Assembly (NCBI RefSeq): GCF_000143685.1
Contig: NC_014328.1
Coordinates: 2,046,001 to 2,110,000 of the forward strand
Length of the DNA stretch: 64,000 bases
From: Clostridium ljungdahlii DSM 13528
GTDB taxonomy: Bacteria > Bacillota > Clostridia > Clostridiales > Clostridiaceae
Direction: 5' to 3'
Below, in pieces: positions 1,716 through 61,198 of this stretch. The position numbers and the translations under genes were made by a program. The number at the start of each line of letters is the position of its first letter. The first letter of the stretch is position 1. The notes below the pieces were generated by a model. It saw only the letters and a program-made list of their open reading frames with translations. It did no database searches and had not been told where the DNA came from.

Positions 1716-1783
1716 GTTAATCCAAGGACTAGCCCTTCTAATAGTTCTACTTTTTAAAGGGGAGATATTAGAGAGGCTATGTC
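1716..1783 (+). repeat. Degenerate copy of the dispersed structured repeat
   Basis: Right after the chemoreceptor gene, this stretch follows the layout of the repeat seen at 13357, 46767 and 61051: GTTAATCC, then GACTAGCC, a short hairpin region, TATTAGAG, then GGCTATGTC. The outer GAC/GTC and AGCC/GGCT pairing is kept although the sequence has drifted. It is followed by a T-rich run and could also act as a transcription terminator. Confidence 0.4.
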
Positions 1784-4643: not shown

Positions 4644-6499
4644 GTGATAAATATAAAATAAAAAGACAAAAAGTACATCAGCATGGACCTGGCGGTATGA
4701 TACATGGTGGTGAAAAGGCAAATAACTTTAAAGGTACTATGAAAAAACTCATGTCATATATGAATGAATATAAATTAGCTGTTATTATAGTATTTATATT
4801 TGCAGCTGCAAGTTCTGTGTTTTCCATAGTAGGACCTAAGATATTGGGCAAGGCTACAACTAAGCTCTTTGAGGGAATTATGGGTAAAATTTCAGGATCA
4901 GGCTCTGGAATAGACTTTGATTATATAGCTAGGATATTAATAATACTTGCAGGATTATATGCATTAAGTACACTTTTTAGTTATATTCAAGGATGGCTTA
5001 TGTCTGGGGTTTCCATGAAAGTAAGCTACAAGATGCGAAAGGAAATTTCAAAAAAAATAAACAAATTACCTCTTAAATATTTTGATGGAACAAATCAAGG
5101 GGAGGTACTATCTCGTGTTACCAATGATGTGGATACGGTAAGTCAGACTCTAAATCAGAGTTTGACTCAGATAATTACTTCCATTACTACTGTAGTAGGG
5201 GTACTTGTGATGATGCTGAGCATAAGCTTTACTATGACTTTAGTAGCACTTTGCATAATTCCACTATCTATGGGAATTATGATGTTCATAATCAAACAAT
5301 CCCAGAAATATTTTAAAGAGCAGCAGGACTACTTGGGACACGTAAATGGGCACGTAGAGGAAATGTATGGTGGTCATATAGTTATGAGAGCTTTTAATGG
5401 TGAAGAAGATAGCATTGAAAAGTTTGATGGACTAAATAATACACTGTATAAATCTGCATGGAAATCACAGTTTTTATCAGGCATGATAATGCCAATCATG
5501 AATTTTGTCAGCAATCTTGGTTATGTAGGTGTATGCGTGCTTGGAGGATGGCTTGCCATAAAAAAGACTATTGAAGTTGGAGATATTCAAGCTTTCATAC
5601 AGTACGTAAGATTCTTTACCCAACCAATTACTCAAATAGCAAATATATCAAACATACTTCAGCAGACTGCTGCTTCAGCAGAGCGTGTATTTGAATTTTT
5701 AGAAGAGGAAGAGGCAGTACCTGAGACTTGCAATCCTGTAAAACTTGAAAAGGTTGAAGGATATGTAGAATTTAAAAATGTTCGTTTTGGATATAATCCT
5801 GATAAAGTTGTTATAAATGATTTTTCAGCTAAAATAAAGCCAGGTGAAAAAGTTGCAATTGTAGGACCAACAGGTGCAGGAAAAACTACTATGGTGAAAC
5901 TTTTAATGAGATTTTATGATATAAATAGTGGATCTATTTTAGTAGACGGACATGATATAAGAGATTTTAGGCGAAATGACTTGAGATCTATATTTGGTAT
6001 GGTGCTCCAAGATACGTGGCTTTATAATGGAAGTATAATGGAAAATATAAGATATGGGAGACTTAATGCTTCTGATGAAGAGGTCAAAATTGCAGCAAAG
6101 GCAGCTCATGTGGATAGCTTTGTGAGAACCTTGCCAGGTGGATACGATATGATTTTAAATGAAGAAGCCTCCAATGTATCTCAAGGACAAAAGCAGCTTT
6201 TAACAATTGCAAGGGCTATACTTGCAGATCCTAAAGTTCTTATTTTGGATGAGGCAACCAGTTCTGTAGATACTCGTACAGAAGTTAGAATAAAAAAGGC
6301 AATGGATAATCTTATGAGAGATCGTACTAGTTTCATTATTGCACACAGGTTGTCTACAGTGCGTGATGCAGATTTAATTCTTGTAATGAATAATGGTGAT
6401 ATTGTAGAACAGGGAAATCATGAAGAACTTTTGAAAAAGAAAGGATTTTACGCTAACCTTTATAATAGTCAGTTTGAAGATTCTCTGGCTGCTGAATAA
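4640..6499 (+). CDS. ABC exporter half-transporter, catalytic partner
   Basis: 619-residue fused permease/ATPase translationally coupled (ATGA overlap) to the preceding half-transporter. It starts with a His/Gly-containing cytoplasmic tail, then six membrane helices (about 48-340). The ATPase domain has Walker A GPTGAGKT (409-416), Walker B LDEA with the normal catalytic Glu538, and a deviant signature VSQGQ (513-517) instead of LSGGQ. The deviant signature would face the partner's Asp-type Walker B, making one complete and one degenerate ATP site per heterodimer. Export of a hydrophobic compound under MarR control is the likely role. Confidence 0.93.
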   Translation: MSDKYKIKRQKVHQHGPGGMIHGGEKANNFKGTMKKLMSYMNEYKLAVIIVFIFAAASSVFSIVGPKILGKATTKLFEGIMGKISGSGSGIDFDYIARILIILAGLYALSTLFSYIQGWLMSGVSMKVSYKMRKEISKKINKLPLKYFDGTNQGEVLSRVTNDVDTVSQTLNQSLTQIITSITTVVGVLVMMLSISFTMTLVALCIIPLSMGIMMFIIKQSQKYFKEQQDYLGHVNGHVEEMYGGHIVMRAFNGEEDSIEKFDGLNNTLYKSAWKSQFLSGMIMPIMNFVSNLGYVGVCVLGGWLAIKKTIEVGDIQAFIQYVRFFTQPITQIANISNILQQTAASAERVFEFLEEEEAVPETCNPVKLEKVEGYVEFKNVRFGYNPDKVVINDFSAKIKPGEKVAIVGPTGAGKTTMVKLLMRFYDINSGSILVDGHDIRDFRRNDLRSIFGMVLQDTWLYNGSIMENIRYGRLNASDEEVKIAAKAAHVDSFVRTLPGGYDMILNEEASNVSQGQKQLLTIARAILADPKVLILDEATSSVDTRTEVRIKKAMDNLMRDRTSFIIAHRLSTVRDADLILVMNNGDIVEQGNHEELLKKKGFYANLYNSQFEDSLAAE

Positions 6500-6515
6500 A
6501 CAGAGTAAGTTTGTT

Positions 6516-6556
6516 ATAGGATAGATAGTTAAATACTATTTATCCTATATTTTTTT
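6516..6556 (+). terminator. Rho-independent terminator of the MarR-ABC unit
   Basis: ATAGGATAGATAGT (6516-6529) pairs with ACTATTTATCCTAT (6535-6548) over a 5-nt loop, followed by A and seven Ts. Confidence 0.8.
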
Positions 6557-9091: not shown

Positions 9092-10399
9092 ATGGTAGAA
9101 AGTATAGACAGAGAAGAAAGATTAATAAAAAAACAAAAATTAAAAATTAATAAAAAGAAAGCAGTAAGGTCTATTTGTATATTAGTTTTATTTATATATG
9201 CTTTACATGTAATTTGGGTACATTTTTTAGTTAATAGATATAATAAGCTCATATATCCAGGAGTTAAAGTTGAAGGTATAAAATTAAGCGGAAAAACACA
9301 AGAAGAAGCGGTAAGTACTTTAAGGAATAAGTACATAAATGAGATATTAAAGAAGAATATAGTGATTAAAATTGACAATAAGATGTATACAATAAATTAT
9401 TCAAAGTTAAATATAAGTTATAACCTAGAAGATACAATAAAAAATGCTTTTGACTATGGTAAAAGTGGAGATATGTCTTACAAATATAAGATCATAAGCA
9501 GTGGCAAAGAAAAAAATTTTTCTCTAGAATACAGTTATGATAAAAAAGAAATTCAAAAAACTATATCAAAAATTCAAGGTGAATGTGATAAAAAACCAGT
9601 AAATGCAAGTATGACTAAAGATAAAAACGATAAATTTCAAATTACTAAAGAAAAAGTAGGATATGAAGTTAATAAGGACAAGCTTCTTAGGGATATTGAT
9701 AGGGAAATAGGAAATAGGGATATTAAGGATATTATAGTTGATGTTAAAATAAAAAAAGTTGAGCCTGCTATAAAAAAAGTAGATTTGCAGAAAATAGATA
9801 CGAAAATATCCAGTTTTGCTACGGATTTTTCTTCTTCTACAGCAAACAGAGCTAATAACATACAGGTAGCTTCTAAAGCACTGAATGGAACTGTTGTTAT
9901 GCCAAATGAAACCTTTAGCTTTAACAAAGTAGTAGGAGAGAGAACTTCAGAAAGAGGATATGAATCTGCACATGTTATTGTGGGCGATAAAGTAGAATCT
10001 GGATTAGGAGGAGGAGTATGTCAGGTATCGAGTACTCTTCATAATGCTGTAGTAGGAGCAGGCATAGTGCCTACAGAAAGAGATCACCACAATATGCCTG
10101 TGAGTTATGTAGGTATTGGAATGGATGCTACTGTGGATTATGGAAACATAGATTATAAATTTAAAAATACACTGGGATATCCTATATATATAGAATGTAC
10201 AACTGATGATAAGAAACTTACATTTAATATTTATTCAAATTCTAAGTTGACTAAAAAGACCTATAAGCTTGTAAATAGTGTGAAAACAGTAAATAGATCT
10301 GGCAAGGCGGTATGTGAGGCAAAAGCTTATAAAGTTACTTATGAAGATGGAAAAGAGGTTTCAAGAGATGAGATAAACAGTGATTGTTATGTGAAATGA
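9092..10399 (+). CDS. VanW-family protein with putative peptidoglycan-binding domain
   Basis: 435-residue membrane-anchored envelope protein. A basic N-terminus precedes one membrane helix (about 28-48). Next comes a PG_binding_4-like domain (about 70-190) beginning PGVKVEGIKLSGKTQEEA, then the VanW domain (about 240-400) with MPNETFSFNKVVGERT, GGGVCQVSSTLHNA and ERDHHNMPVSYV. AGGAGG lies 14 nt upstream, a rather long spacing, but no closer start exists. The family is linked to the cell wall; its exact reaction is not established. A shortened second copy of the 3' 500 bp lies at 19741-20278. Confidence 0.9.
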   Translation: MVESIDREERLIKKQKLKINKKKAVRSICILVLFIYALHVIWVHFLVNRYNKLIYPGVKVEGIKLSGKTQEEAVSTLRNKYINEILKKNIVIKIDNKMYTINYSKLNISYNLEDTIKNAFDYGKSGDMSYKYKIISSGKEKNFSLEYSYDKKEIQKTISKIQGECDKKPVNASMTKDKNDKFQITKEKVGYEVNKDKLLRDIDREIGNRDIKDIIVDVKIKKVEPAIKKVDLQKIDTKISSFATDFSSSTANRANNIQVASKALNGTVVMPNETFSFNKVVGERTSERGYESAHVIVGDKVESGLGGGVCQVSSTLHNAVVGAGIVPTERDHHNMPVSYVGIGMDATVDYGNIDYKFKNTLGYPIYIECTTDDKKLTFNIYSNSKLTKKTYKLVNSVKTVNRSGKAVCEAKAYKVTYEDGKEVSRDEINSDCYVK

Positions 10400-10715: not shown

Positions 10716-13148
<2,433 letters not shown>

Positions 13149-13356
13149 TCATTATGCTGTTTTATAATTATGCTATTACAATATATGTTTCTGTACTAAA
13201 ATAGGATACAAAAAAGCATTAAGTTTATAAGATTTATAATTATTACCTAAAAAATTATATGCAAAAAGTCTCAAATTTGGTATGCTTATATTGCCTAAAA
13301 ACAAATAAACAAATTTGAAACTTTCTACAATGAATAGTTTATATGAAAAAGAATTA

Positions 13357-13438
13357 TAGAAATCGTTATCCAGGGACGTACCCACTCTTTACCCCACTTG
13401 AAGAAGTTTGAGTATTAGTGTGGTTAGTTATCGGATAA
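13357..13438 (+). repeat. Structured repeat, 3' two-thirds of a copy
   Basis: TAGAAATCGTTATCCAGGGAC leads into a hairpin region (CTCTTTACCCCACTT / AAG..GAGTATTAG) and closes with TTATCGGATAA. It matches 61101-61182 in order and spacing. The 5' hairpin of the full repeat is missing. The decayed transposase begins at its right end. Confidence 0.75.
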
Positions 13439-19523: not shown

Positions 19524-19553
19524 ATCAGCACCCGTTTTACGGGTGGTGCTGAT
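19524..19553. other. Hairpin at the island's right edge
   Basis: ATCAGCACCCGT pairs with ACGGG(TGG)TGCTGAT with a three-base bulge and a TTT loop. It sits exactly where island sequence meets the ABC-F fragment. GC-richer than its surroundings. It could be an end of an IS200/IS605-like element or another mobile element; this is inference. Confidence 0.45.
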
Positions 19554-19747
19554 TTAAAAATACGAAGAGGAGATAAAATTGGCATTGTAGGAGAAAACGG
19601 TGCAGGTAAAACTACACTTTTGAATATCTTATCAGGAGAGACAGATGCAGATACAGGTGTTATTAGAAGGTATTGTTCTACAGCGTATATAAAACAATTT
19701 TCAGATGAAAATGTGAATACGCAAGGTAAGCTTTTTAAAGAATTTGG
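19551..19747 (+). pseudogene. ABC-F gene fragment (Walker A region)
   Basis: 197 bp matching 20608-20804 at a constant offset of 1,057 with a single visible mismatch. It encodes residues 23-88 of the downstream ABC-F protein including GENGAGKT, then breaks off within AATTTGG, where it joins VanW sequence. No start region and no second ATPase domain, so non-functional. Confidence 0.92.
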
Positions 19748-20278
19748 GTACATTTTTTAGTTAATAGATATGTTGTTATGCCAAATGAAACCTTTAGCTT
19801 TAACAAAGTAGTAGGAGAGAGAACTTCAGAAAGAGGATATGAAGCTGTACATGTTATTGTAGGTGATAAAGTGGAATCTGGATTAGGAGGAGGAGTGTGT
19901 CAGGTATCAAGTACCCCTCATAATGCTGTAGTAGGAGCAGGTATAGTGCCTACAGAAAGAGATCACCACAATATGACCGTGAGTTATGTAGGTATTGGAA
20001 TGGATGCTACTGTGGATTATGGAAACATAGATTATAAATTTAAAAATACACTGGGGTATCCCATATATATAGAATGTACAACTGATGATAAGAAACTTAC
20101 ATTTAATATTTATTCAAATTCTAAGTTGACTAAAAAGACCTATAAGCTTGTAAATAGTGTGAAAACAGTAAATAGATCTGGCAAGGCGGTATGTGAGGCA
20201 AAAGCTTATAAAGTTACTTATGAAGATGGAAAAGAGGTTTCAAGAGATGAGATAAACAGTGATTGTTATGTGAAATGA
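19741..20278 (+). pseudogene. Internally deleted VanW gene copy
   Basis: 19741-19770 is identical to 9211-9240 of the intact gene; from 19771 it matches 9892 onward. Exactly 651 bp (217 codons) are missing between the two parts, so the reading frame is preserved across the junction, but the true 5' end and signal anchor are absent. A downstream ATG (19778) could give at most a 166-residue VanW domain without membrane anchor and without a ribosome binding site. It carries a Leu-to-Pro change in CQVSSTPHNA. Confidence 0.92.
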
Positions 20279-20541: not shown

Positions 20542-22161
20542 ATGCTTATTTTAGAAGCTGTGAATTTGAAAAAATATTATGGAGATAGATTAATCATATC
20601 TACTAATGATTTAAAAATACGAAGAGGAGATAAAATTGGTATTGTAGGAGAAAACGGTGCAGGTAAAACTACACTTTTGAATATCTTATCAGGAGAGACA
20701 GATGCAGATACAGGTGTTATTAGAAGGTATTGTTCTACAGCGTATATAAAACAATTTTCAGATGAAAATGTGAATACGCAAGGTAAGCTTTTTAAAGAAT
20801 TTGGAGTCAATGATAAGATTGATTGTCAGAAGGCAAGTGGAGGTGAACGAGCTAAGCTTAGTATTGCAGCTGAGTTAAGTAAAAACAGTTCCTTGCTTTT
20901 AGCAGATGAACCTACATCCAATTTAGATTATAAAAGCATTAAAGTACTGAAAGAAAAGTTCAGTAAGGTAGAAACTATTGTGTTAATAAGCCATGATAGA
21001 GATTTTATGGATACCCTATGTAATAAAATTATTGAAATAAGAAATGGCAAACTTTTCTTTTACGAAGGAAACTATTCTTTTTACAAAAAGCAAAAAGATT
21101 TAAAAATAAAAAAACAGAAGATGGAATATGAAGAATATATAGAGGAGAAAGTAAGGCTTGAAAAAACAACAAGAGATGTACAGAGTAAATCAAAATCCAT
21201 GAAAAAAACTCCAAAGAGAATGGGGAATTCTGAAGCAAGACTTCACAAACGTGCAGTCAATGAAAGAAAGAAAAAATTGGATAGTGCAGTAAAGGGCATA
21301 AAGTCACGTATTGAAAAGCTGCAAGTTAAGGAAAAACCCGATAAAATTTTAAAAGTAAAAATTGATTTTTCTTTGACCAATCCTCCACAAAATAAAATTA
21401 TTATGGTTAGTTCTAATTTTTGTTTTAAATATAATAAAAATGAGATTTTTCGTAATGCTAAATTTAAGGTTTACAATGGAATGAAGACAGCAGTTGTAGG
21501 AGATAATGGCTCTGGAAAAACTACACTATTAAATCTTATAAATATGCAGGATGAGCAAATTTATACTGTTCCAAAAGCGGTTATTGGATATTTTCATCAG
21601 AACTTTGAAGATCTTGATTTTGATAAAACTGTACTCCAAAATGTTATGGTTAGTAGCATTCAAAGTGAAAGCTGTGTTCGAACAATTTTGGCAAGATTAT
21701 TGATTTTTGGTGATGCAGTGAGTAAAAAAGTTGGAGTTTTAAGCGGCGGAGAGAAAATAAAGGTTTCTTTTGCAAAGCTTTTTGCATCAAAGGCTAATGT
21801 ATTGCTTCTTGATGAGCCTACAAACTATCTTGATATGCAGTCTATTGTGGCACTGGAAGATTTCCTAAAAGTTTATGAAGGAACTGTACTTTTTGTATCT
21901 CATGATAGAGCTTTTATAAATTCTGTAGCAGATAGACTGTTTATACTTGAAAATGAAAAAATAACGGAATTTGAAGGAAATTTGGAACAATTTGAAAAAA
22001 GTAAAAACGTACCAAAAAATCAAGAAAATATATATATAGAAAAATCAATTTTGCAGATGAAGCTTACTGAAATTGTTTCTAGAATGTCCTTAAAAGATTG
22101 TGATAAAGAAGCATTGGATAAAGAATATCAATGTATTGCGAAGCAATTAAATAAGATGTAA
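20542..22161 (+). CDS. ABC-F family ATPase (probable ribosome protection type)
   Basis: 539 residues, two ATPase domains, no membrane segments. Domain 1: GENGAGKT (36-43), SGGERAKLS, LLADEPTSNLD. A long basic helical linker (about 185-275, rich in Lys/Glu) corresponds to the ribosome-reaching interdomain arm. Domain 2: GDNGSGKT, LSGGEKIKVS, LLLDEPTNYLD. Proteins of this build, such as the Vga/Lsa/VmlR group, displace antibiotics from the ribosomal exit tunnel; housekeeping EttA-like members also exist, so resistance is an inference. RBS AAAGGAG precedes the ATG. The leader of about 260 bp is duplicated at the left of the island. Confidence 0.9.
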   Translation: MLILEAVNLKKYYGDRLIISTNDLKIRRGDKIGIVGENGAGKTTLLNILSGETDADTGVIRRYCSTAYIKQFSDENVNTQGKLFKEFGVNDKIDCQKASGGERAKLSIAAELSKNSSLLLADEPTSNLDYKSIKVLKEKFSKVETIVLISHDRDFMDTLCNKIIEIRNGKLFFYEGNYSFYKKQKDLKIKKQKMEYEEYIEEKVRLEKTTRDVQSKSKSMKKTPKRMGNSEARLHKRAVNERKKKLDSAVKGIKSRIEKLQVKEKPDKILKVKIDFSLTNPPQNKIIMVSSNFCFKYNKNEIFRNAKFKVYNGMKTAVVGDNGSGKTTLLNLINMQDEQIYTVPKAVIGYFHQNFEDLDFDKTVLQNVMVSSIQSESCVRTILARLLIFGDAVSKKVGVLSGGEKIKVSFAKLFASKANVLLLDEPTNYLDMQSIVALEDFLKVYEGTVLFVSHDRAFINSVADRLFILENEKITEFEGNLEQFEKSKNVPKNQENIYIEKSILQMKLTEIVSRMSLKDCDKEALDKEYQCIAKQLNKM

Positions 22162-22168
22162 GGTTGAT

Positions 22169-22200
22169 GGGGAGTATTAGAGAAGGTAGTCATCGGATAA
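22169..22200 (+). repeat. 3' half of the structured repeat
   Basis: GGGGAGTATTAGAGAAGG followed by TAGTCATCGGATAA, matching the right arm of the copy at 61051-61182. The left arm is absent. It begins 8 bp after the ABC-F stop codon. Confidence 0.65.
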
Positions 22201-23917: not shown

Positions 23918-24070
23918 AATTATATTTATTATATTAATAAGATATGCTATAATTTTAAAGAGTTGGTATTTCATAAGGAAACCAAACTCTAATCTATGTT
24001 TAATCCTTTATCAATTTATAGAAGTCTTCCGACTTATATCCATAAAGGAATAAGAATGGAGGTTACTATT

Positions 24071-27342: not shown

Positions 27343-27991
27343 AGTAATTTTAATAATTTTTATCGTAATTGAATTATACAGTGTACATATAAAGAAGTTA
27401 TGAAGAAATTCAGAAGTTATAAAAATTAATTATTGAAGGATTTTCTTACATAGCAGTGCTAACTAGACTTTCAGTTGGAACTTTGTTTAGATCATTGGTA
27501 CAGTCCTCACAGTATGAAGTGAAAACTTGAATCAGATGGAGTTTAGAACTCAACATGATTTTTAGTTAAACGAATCCAGTGACGTAGTTACTCTTTACCT
27601 CCGATTTGAAAAAGAGGAGAGTATTACAGCGGGTAGTCATTTGATAAATACATTTAATAGATATAATATTACATAATAGTTGTGTAGAAGTTATGAAGAT
27701 GTATATTTTGATTTTAAATGAGGAGGAGATATTAAAGAAAAAGATAAGGAAAAAGCCTTAGTGAGTGGGGCGTTAAAACAAAGTTTTCTTTATTATATTT
27801 ATAAAAGAAAATATAGATAAATGTCATGTTTACTATTTTATTTTTTGTGATTAACGTAAAATGTGTATTTGATTTATAATAATTTGAGAAATAGTTATAT
27901 AATTAAGATGCAATAAAGTAAATTTATAAACTCAATAAGATAGGAGAATATAATATTTGAATAATTGAATATAGTAGGCGGAGGAAAACAT
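27343..27991. other. Intergenic region with one repeat copy
   Basis: About 650 bp without a gene. It holds the structured repeat (27531-27647) and AT-rich leader sequence of the helicase. No open frame with a ribosome binding site was seen. Confidence 0.6.
27531..27647 (+). repeat. Structured repeat, diverged full-length copy
   Basis: Begins ATCAGATGGAGTTT, then AATCCAGTGACGTAGTTACT, CTTTACCTCC, AGAGGAGAGTATTA and GGGTAGTCATTTGATAA, in the same order as at 61066-61182. The inner stem uses CCTC/GAGG rather than TTCC/GGAA or TCCC/GGGA. Confidence 0.75.
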
Positions 27992-42476: not shown

Positions 42477-42543
42477 TTATCCGATGGCTAGCTACTGGAT
42501 AATTCATCTAAACTTAGTGGAAGAAATAAAACTTCCACTAAGT
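42477..42543 (-). repeat. Short variant of the structured repeat
   Basis: On the minus strand: a perfect 12-bp hairpin (ACTTAGTGGAAG / CTTCCACTAAGT, loop 8) followed by TTATCCAGTAGCTAGCCATCGGATAA (key ends TTATCC and CGGATAA). It keeps the order 5' hairpin then TTATCC...GGATAA of the long repeat but lacks the inner stem. It lies 114 bp before codB. Confidence 0.55.
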
Positions 42544-42596
42544 AAGATTCATTGATAATTGCAGAACTATTTTGCTAAATTATCAAAAAATATATG

Positions 42597-46766: not shown

Positions 46767-46900
46767 TTATCAGATAACTACTCATTCTAATACTCCCACT
46801 TCTGCAAGTGGGAGTAAAGAGTGACTATGTCCCTGGATAACGATTTCTAAGCATCAGGTGGAGTTAAAACTCCATCTGATGCCAAGAACTCTGTTTATAG
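46767..46900 (-). repeat. Structured repeat, full copy (minus strand)
   Basis: On the minus strand it starts TATAAACAGAGTTCTTGGCA and has a strong 5' hairpin GCATCAG.TGGAGTT / AACTCCA.CTGATGC. TTAGAAATCGTTATCCAGGG, then ACTCCCACTT/AAGTGGGAGT and TATTAGA follow, and it ends TTATCTGATAA. It is nearly colinear with 61051-61182. Its beginning overlaps the stop codon of the LysR fragment. Confidence 0.85.
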
Positions 46901-61019: not shown

Positions 61020-61050
61020 ATTTTTAAAATCAAGTAAAAAGTGAATTATT

Positions 61051-61182
61051 TATAAACAGAGTTCTTGGCATCAGATGGAGTTTTGACTCTACCTGTGGTT
61101 AGAAATCGTTATCCGGGGACGTAGCTGCTCTTTACTTCCACTTGGAGAAGTGGAAGTATTAGAGCAGGTAGTCATCGGATAA
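61051..61182 (+). repeat. Structured repeat, reference full copy
   Basis: 132 bp. 5' hairpin CAGATGGAGT / ACTCTACCTG (about 61071-61095); linker TTAGAAATC; outer stem GTTATCCG (61108-61115) / CGGATAAC (61176-61183); middle stem CTGCTCT / AGAGCAG; inner stem ACTTCCACTT / AAGTGGAAGT with loop GGAG. All parts recur in the copy at 46767-46900. Confidence 0.88.
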
Positions 61183-61198
61183 CTTTATTAAATATTAA

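Follow-up and report, generated by a model that had tools for sequence, protein, structure and literature searches.

What is the structured repeat of about 130 bp that recurs in this part of the Clostridium ljungdahlii DSM 13528 genome, and does it act as RNA or as DNA? We addressed this question in a window of 64,000 nucleotides, corresponding to positions 2046001-2110000 of a source contig of 4,630,065 bases (the genome is labelled G000 below). A preliminary description made from the letters alone had listed seven places where the repeat occurs and had left its nature between an RNA and a DNA-hairpin mobile element. In our analysis, the element consists of a 5' hairpin (H1) beside a longer hairpin (H2), whose outermost pairs join TTATCC to the terminal GGATAA. 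The 5' hairpin comes in four types (alpha, beta, gamma and delta), and chimeras of these are found as well. The features identified in the window are as follows.

61052..61182, + strand: full alpha-type element (144 bits), with left junction AT at 61052-61053 and body AAACAGAG...GGAT, then AA
61055..61110, + strand: H1, the 5' hairpin of this element, outermost pairs AAC/GTT
61109..61114, + strand: central TTATCC, which pairs with the right-end GGATAA
61109..61182, + strand: H2, the long 3' hairpin, with stems TTATCC/GGATAA, GAC/GTC, TA/TA and CTGCTCT/AGAGCAG plus an apical arm
61144-61147, + strand: apical loop GGAG, the site of a cassette in other copies
46767..46899, - strand: full alpha-type element (150 bits)
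42477..42557, - strand: short beta-type element, AT followed by CAATGAATC...GGATAA, with most of H2 missing (E 3e-5)
27514..27647, + strand: delta-type element, AT followed by GAAGTGAAAACTTGAATC...TGATAA (E 3e-10), at the same place in the sister species G005
13304..13438, + strand: degenerate copy (E 5e-14), H2 and right end kept, H1 decayed
22169..22200, + strand: 3' remnant, 31 nt in register, missed by the covariance model
6494..6520, + strand: 5' remnant ATAAACAGAGT, absent from the preliminary list
1716..1783, + strand: possible, very degenerate copy, not above chance (E 0.25 on the + strand, 0.016 on the - strand)

Six of the seven places named at the outset (61051, 46767, 27531, 13357, 22169 and 42477) are thus supported as full or partial copies, and the covariance search did not lift the seventh, at 1716, above chance. 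Of the 10 window genes beside copies that were tested, 8 gave Pfam matches, and these are ordinary genes (MarR, a DUF4284 immunity protein, OsmC, ferredoxin-type, permease, helicase, ABC and gamma-glutamyltranspeptidase).

How large is the family? A BLAST search with 61041-61192 as query returned at least about 40 near-complete copies in G000 (40 of 161 candidates scored). We built a covariance model, R1, from an alignment of 31 plain chosen copies (A1), which gave at least 148 matches at E <= 0.1 in the same genome (150 of 2578 candidates scored). These collapse to at least 131 loci, at least 122 of them at E <= 1e-5, and the number rises to at least 138 when exact 3' ends and loci with the M cassette described below are added. 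The family in G000 is therefore about 120-138 detected loci, which is a lower bound; the copies studied closely were those fetched as matches, 349 kb of 4.63 Mb. When up to one mismatch was allowed, a 15-nt 3' end was counted 99 times in the genome and its reversed pattern 0 times; for an 18-nt core, with up to three mismatches, the counts were 94 and 3. Counts by regular expression miss decayed ends and take in some shortened copies (down to 44-49 nt). For six of the 94 core matches, the nearest listed 3' end is more than 350 nt away. The match at 1048834 (L302), one of the six, does have a 3' end on reading, and a large composite copy is possible among the other five, which were judged from the pattern only. 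The reversed patterns, together with the shuffles described next, rule out chance or low complexity as a source of the repeat, in agreement with the preliminary description, which had also argued against chance; the repeat is real, multi-copy and structured.

Pairing in the fold covaries strongly. Both partners have changed in 15 of the 48 pairs of A1, against a mean of 4.0 in shuffled alignments, and none of 500 shuffles reached the observed value. An alignment of 25 chosen copies from 19 genomes (A3) raised this to 27 of 48 pairs, again reached by none of 500 shuffles, with 100 double-change cells against 25 expected; related rows in A3 can exceed shuffles, and controls in which the pairing was slid are far lower as well (7-11 pairs). 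The inner stems quoted in the preliminary description read as it stated and are true compensatory changes in A1. By eye, the foot of H1 also covaries between types (AAC/GTT, AAT/ATT and AAGT/ACTT). The AAC/GTT foot had raised the candidate of an integron attC site, which was dropped as beta and gamma lack these triplets. On the + strand, 61051-61182 has a folding z-score of -7.5 as RNA and of -10.6 as DNA, and both strands of the repeat fold well.

A conserved fold with covariation is what a functional structured RNA present in many copies (riboswitch-like, a 3' UTR element or an sRNA) would show, and we weighed this reading against pairing departures and gene context. If RNA were selected, one-sided departures should favour G-U, yet G-U and A-C are equally frequent (30 versus 28 in A1, 39 versus 39 in A3, a comparison made with no positive control). 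Because the two are equal, they give no sign of RNA function, and most one-sided departures are probably decay after insertion. For context, we used 88 copies and simple ORFs of at least 80 aa. Two of the 88 lie inside an ORF, and the copies share no single gene context. An upstream ORF was called for 84 copies, of which 47 follow a co-oriented ORF and 37 an opposed one. The start lies no more than 20 nt from the stop codon in 24 of the 47, which would suit an RNA of this kind, and in 3 of the 37. The ATAA target described below can, however, explain this closeness to stop codons. Searches with Rfam 15 at gathering score gave no match to the repeat, whether in the window or among 8 loci that include variants, in keeping with the preliminary remark that no named family was recognized. 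The 27 sub-threshold matches (best E 0.0008-0.0016) were taken as chance hairpin matches. With empty sites in relatives added to these points, we regard the RNA reading as highly improbable. The one Rfam hit in the window is an unrelated pan motif (RF01749, 23960-24062, + strand, 43.4 bits), which overlaps the start of the ORF at 23996.

The family is built from exchangeable modules. The H2 loop holds 0, 1 or 2 M hairpins of 51 nt, depending on the copy, and in some copies H1 and H2 are separated by a further hairpin that resembles H1 (H1b). M also sits in the loop of H1-beta (2757023, L294, L305 and L306), and short forms run from a beta 5' arm through M to the 3' end of H2 (L288, L289, L292, L293, L296 and L299). 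Two kinds of H2 are found with H1-alpha (for example, at 290160). The sister species G004 has the 61051 element at the same place, there with a 66-nt insert in the H2 loop that is unlike the 51-nt cassette. Three loci (L295, L301 and L303; G000 at ~2792000, 886000 and 1406300) hold tandem arrays with a 71-72 nt period of an M-like hairpin (CCAAATCTTTGATTTGG ... GTGAATCACTTACTCATTCGAC); they have no element ends nearby and form a related but separate repeat.

Next, we defined the ends. The fetched stretches contain both ends of 106 copies, of which 76 are alpha, 17 beta and 13 gamma (one nested duplicate was dropped from 107). The right end lay within the search pattern (up to three substitutions), and the left AT and the base following the right end lay outside it. 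AT directly precedes the element in 102 of the 106 copies. At the right, the element finishes with ATAA in 98 copies (as GG-ATAA), with ACAA in 7 and with ATAG in a single copy, and an A follows in 99. After the left AT, each type starts in its own way, alpha with AAACAG, beta with CAATG and gamma with CAAGT. Two copies in another genome, G141, have ATAA at the left and ATAT at the right. From the left AT, the right-end figures, the type-specific starts and these ATAT ends, we place the left junction at AT^ and the right junction at GGAT^; the preferred target is AT^AAA. Judging by the copies that end in ACAA, the AT at the right end probably moves as part of the element. Terminal inverted repeats are absent, as comparison of the left ATAAACAGAGTTC with the reverse complement of the right TTATCCGATGACTAC makes plain. 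The element inserts precisely at AT^AAA, which leaves AT on both flanks.

Two other readings of these junctions deserve attention. If the repeat were a MITE of a DDE insertion sequence, ATAA(A) would be its target-site duplication, and direct ATAA(A) at both ends with a single copy in empty sites would fit. The ends are not mutual inverted repeats, however, and the flanks do not form an equal-sequence duplication, given the 7 ACAA right ends and the ATAA/ATAT pair in G141, although a 2-bp AT duplication is possible. We consider a MITE of this sort very unlikely. Alternatively, a serine recombinase or an RNA-guided IS110-like enzyme could act on the folded element by site-specific recombination at a 2-bp AT core; AT is common to the alpha, beta and gamma junctions and the fold is RNA-like, but we think this distinctly unlikely too.

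Is the repeat mobile? We aligned the window with ~80 kb from each of two sister species, G004 and G005, and found precise empty sites for two copies, a check that the preliminary description had proposed. In place of the copy at 46767, a single TTTAT stands in each sister, and both lack the beta element at 42477, where the shared bases are AT. Precise loss of 46767 in both sisters is an alternative to gain here, since 12 of the 133 positions of this copy depart from the consensus. G005 lacks the 61051 element, but there the gap also takes in over 800 bases of surrounding sequence. Other sites record decay in the window. Near 6500, the window keeps an 11-nt remnant of a full alpha element of G004, with deletion ends that share AGT; at 22169, the element is a complete H1-H1b-H2 in G004, and the window deletion runs between two GGGAG repeats. 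That partial copies end at such short repeats suggests decay by slippage. Insertions into existing repeats are seen as well. Copy L037 interrupts another repeat that is uninterrupted in G004, and L006 and L017 occupy precisely the ATAA ends of older copies. The repeat split by L037 in G000 is a different dispersed one, ACTGCGTCGGTAGAA...CCTTGTCTGATAAAAAATATCCGTCGC, also present in G004 at window site 7011. At window positions 2385 (compared with G004) and 32229 (compared with G005), the sister species has a longer repeat-like insert and the window has none.

Movement appears fairly recent in G141, because 5 of the 9 copies read there are 96-99% alike (one pair at 133/134) and their 100-base flanks are dissimilar. 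In G000, the closest pair among the 106 copies is 97.6% alike, and the family looks old or dormant. Hence, of the two natures offered by the preliminary description, the mobile element is borne out by the empty sites, the fixed termini and target, the covariation and the near-identical copies at unrelated sites in G141, and the RNA is not. We are very confident that the repeat is a mobile, non-autonomous element.

How might it move? We propose that the element, mostly 127-250 nt long, non-autonomous and non-coding, is moved in trans, and that the unit would be recognized as single-stranded DNA in its folded form. The cleavage sites may be brought together by the hairpins at the two ends and by the central TTAT, which can pair with the right-end ATAA and with the left AT. 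In the window copy at 61052, the left AT(A)A is a second possible partner for the TTAT of the central TTATCC, for which the two ends would then compete. An HUH transposase (Y1/TnpA/RAYT-like), whether a host gene product or one encoded by a different element, would then cut after AT at both ends, and the excised strand would be joined to a new ATAAA. We hold this proposal as a whole to be the best explanation with good confidence, and that the mobilizing enzyme is of the HUH type we put somewhat short of an even chance.

A search for such an enzyme, with the scope given here, linked none to the element. Y1_Tnp had no match in G000, G003, G015 and G025 (4 of 27 element carriers searched), and 12 further carriers all had Y1 matches, which in G141 are just fragments of 22.3 and 20.9 bits (the genome is 94% complete). 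We read 80 of 175 listed Y1 matches with flanks of up to 1.5-2.5 kb. None of the 80 is an autonomous copy, that is, a Y1 gene between the same ends, and a clear element lies near 2 (L117 and L367); weak element matches lie ~2 kb from two others (L146 and L147, E 0.002-0.003). In both clear cases, the element seems to have inserted into the gene or next to it. At L117, the RAYT stop codon is within the element's 5' end. At L367, in G313, the RAYT frame runs into a gene that we take from its translation to be comM-like and that is interrupted by the element, with a second element 472 nt beyond. G000 itself has a 39-aa RAYT-like remnant (E 5e-7, one stop) and G141 a weak one. The remnant in G000 would fit a lost HUH enzyme, and such a loss is possibly the cause of dormancy there. 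Nor did an autonomous parent emerge from the IS200 copies of G009, G010 and G041, whose ends differ from those of the element, or from several RAYT flanks, which carry other palindromes. Transposition of the IS200/IS605 type has a lagging-strand bias; relative to replication, 88 copies of the element are split 50:38 by orientation (p 0.24), with no clear bias either way.

These loci also bear on whether the repeat is a REPIN-like element with a clostridial RAYT partner. It resembles REPs and REPINs in its hairpins with adjacent GTAG, found at both feet of the inner H2 stem, in being non-autonomous and in being mostly intergenic. RAYT-like genes occur in many carriers, two of them are adjacent to an element (L117 and L367), and there are the remnants in G000 and, weakly, G141. 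A RAYT gene is normally flanked by its REPs. A GTAG/GGAG foot together with a cognate RAYT gene flanked by the repeat would mark such a system; GTAG is present, but a clear element is found near 2 of 80 Y1 loci read, both explicable as insertions, and several RAYT-like genes are flanked by other palindromes. Furthermore, the element is at least three times as long as REPs, for which PMC3733652 gives 20-40 bp. We judge a REPIN unlikely. Several RAYT-like genes (L146, L147, L150, L153, L158 and similar) have palindromes of their own (GGTGCCTGTCAC, GGGACGGTTAAC and GGGGCCAGACCCC), apparently a separate REP/RAYT system.

We wondered how widespread the family might be. R1 found it at E <= 0.001 in at least 38 of 118 relatives (28 candidates scored per genome, under stricter filters) and at E <= 1e-5 in at least 20 of 291 genomes of the class (11 candidates scored per genome, likewise under stricter filters), the own genome counted in both. 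The matches fall in families f1, f23, f24, f25, f28, f33 and f76 of the class set, with f2 from the set of relatives as an eighth. The search of other Clostridia suggested in the preliminary description thus yields a family spread beyond this genome, with significant stem covariation. An exact alpha-type 35-mer occurs in 37 stretches in named genomes, all Clostridium or Clostridiaceae. An alpha copy had no match among plasmids and phages, a gamma copy and a G313 copy none among plasmids, and one exact 19-nt core none among viral contigs, leaving a plasmid or phage origin unsupported.

We then compared the element with known repeats. It shares end hairpins, a lack of terminal inverted repeats and a fixed short target 5' of the left end with IS200/IS605 elements. 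Its ATAAA target, read on the other strand, is the TTTAT that PMC6542083 describes as the bcr motif of Bacillus cereus repeats. As in bcr1, where TTTAT stands at the ends, ATAA(A) is found at both ends in most of the 106 copies, and empty sites are precise. We know of no comparable combinatorial cassettes in bcr1. That repeat, in group A of the B. cereus repeats, is 147-167 nt long (PMC2267715), multi-copy, MITE-like and often in UTRs (PMC3446304), and is described in PMC6542083 as restricted to the B. cereus group; the likeness is one of published description. PMC2267715 also lists the stem-loop repeats Clop-1 of C. perfringens (93 nt, 44 copies) and Clot-1 of C. tetani (74 nt, 19 copies), which are shorter than the clostridial element studied here. 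BOX of Streptococcus, as presented in PMC3049150, has the form boxA-(boxB)n-boxC with a variable tandem inner module, S. suis 5' and 3' module types sharing boxB, and is dormant now according to its authors. The clostridial repeat has a similar modular A-(B)n-C design, with 0-2 tandem M in H2, a likeness again drawn from description. However, BOX has terminal inverted repeats, likened to those of ISSpn2 in PMC3049150, and the clostridial repeat has none, prefers an AT^AAA target and takes cassettes into the H1 loop too.

The repeat is a real, structured, mobile, non-coding DNA element that present evidence does not allow us to assign to bcr1, the IS200/IS605 derivatives or BOX. By analogy with bcr1 and the IS200/IS605 derivatives, it would work as a hairpin-ended element free of terminal inverted repeats, and its modules resemble those of BOX. 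We found no description of the family in the open-access literature, where four 15-25-nt stretches used as text gave no papers. A broader idea, which we consider rather doubtful, is that these are class-wide self-folding DNA cassettes, in which TTATCC would act as a central guide pairing alternately with both ends and selecting AT^AAA, modules would be swapped and inserted in loops, an unrecognized enzyme would do the work, and bcr1 would be the Bacillus counterpart. Under our preferred reading of a hairpin-built element moved in trans, a large family in the model acetogen C. ljungdahlii, reaching at least eight families of its class and yet without an Rfam match, offers a natural series of folded DNA substrates. 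Their termini are conserved and their stems vary freely, so that the structural code of the mobilizing enzyme could be derived from them, and the movement of repeats without terminal inverted repeats, such as bcr1, becomes testable in another clade.

The window contains other repeated sequence. An 800-aa ORF (10716-13118, - strand) has a long repeat with a 9-nt period at 11016-12523, which may encode a collagen-like Gly-X-Y stretch, and two near-identical direct duplications pair 9884-10183 with 19763-20062 (94%) and 19550-19747 with 20607-20804 (99%).
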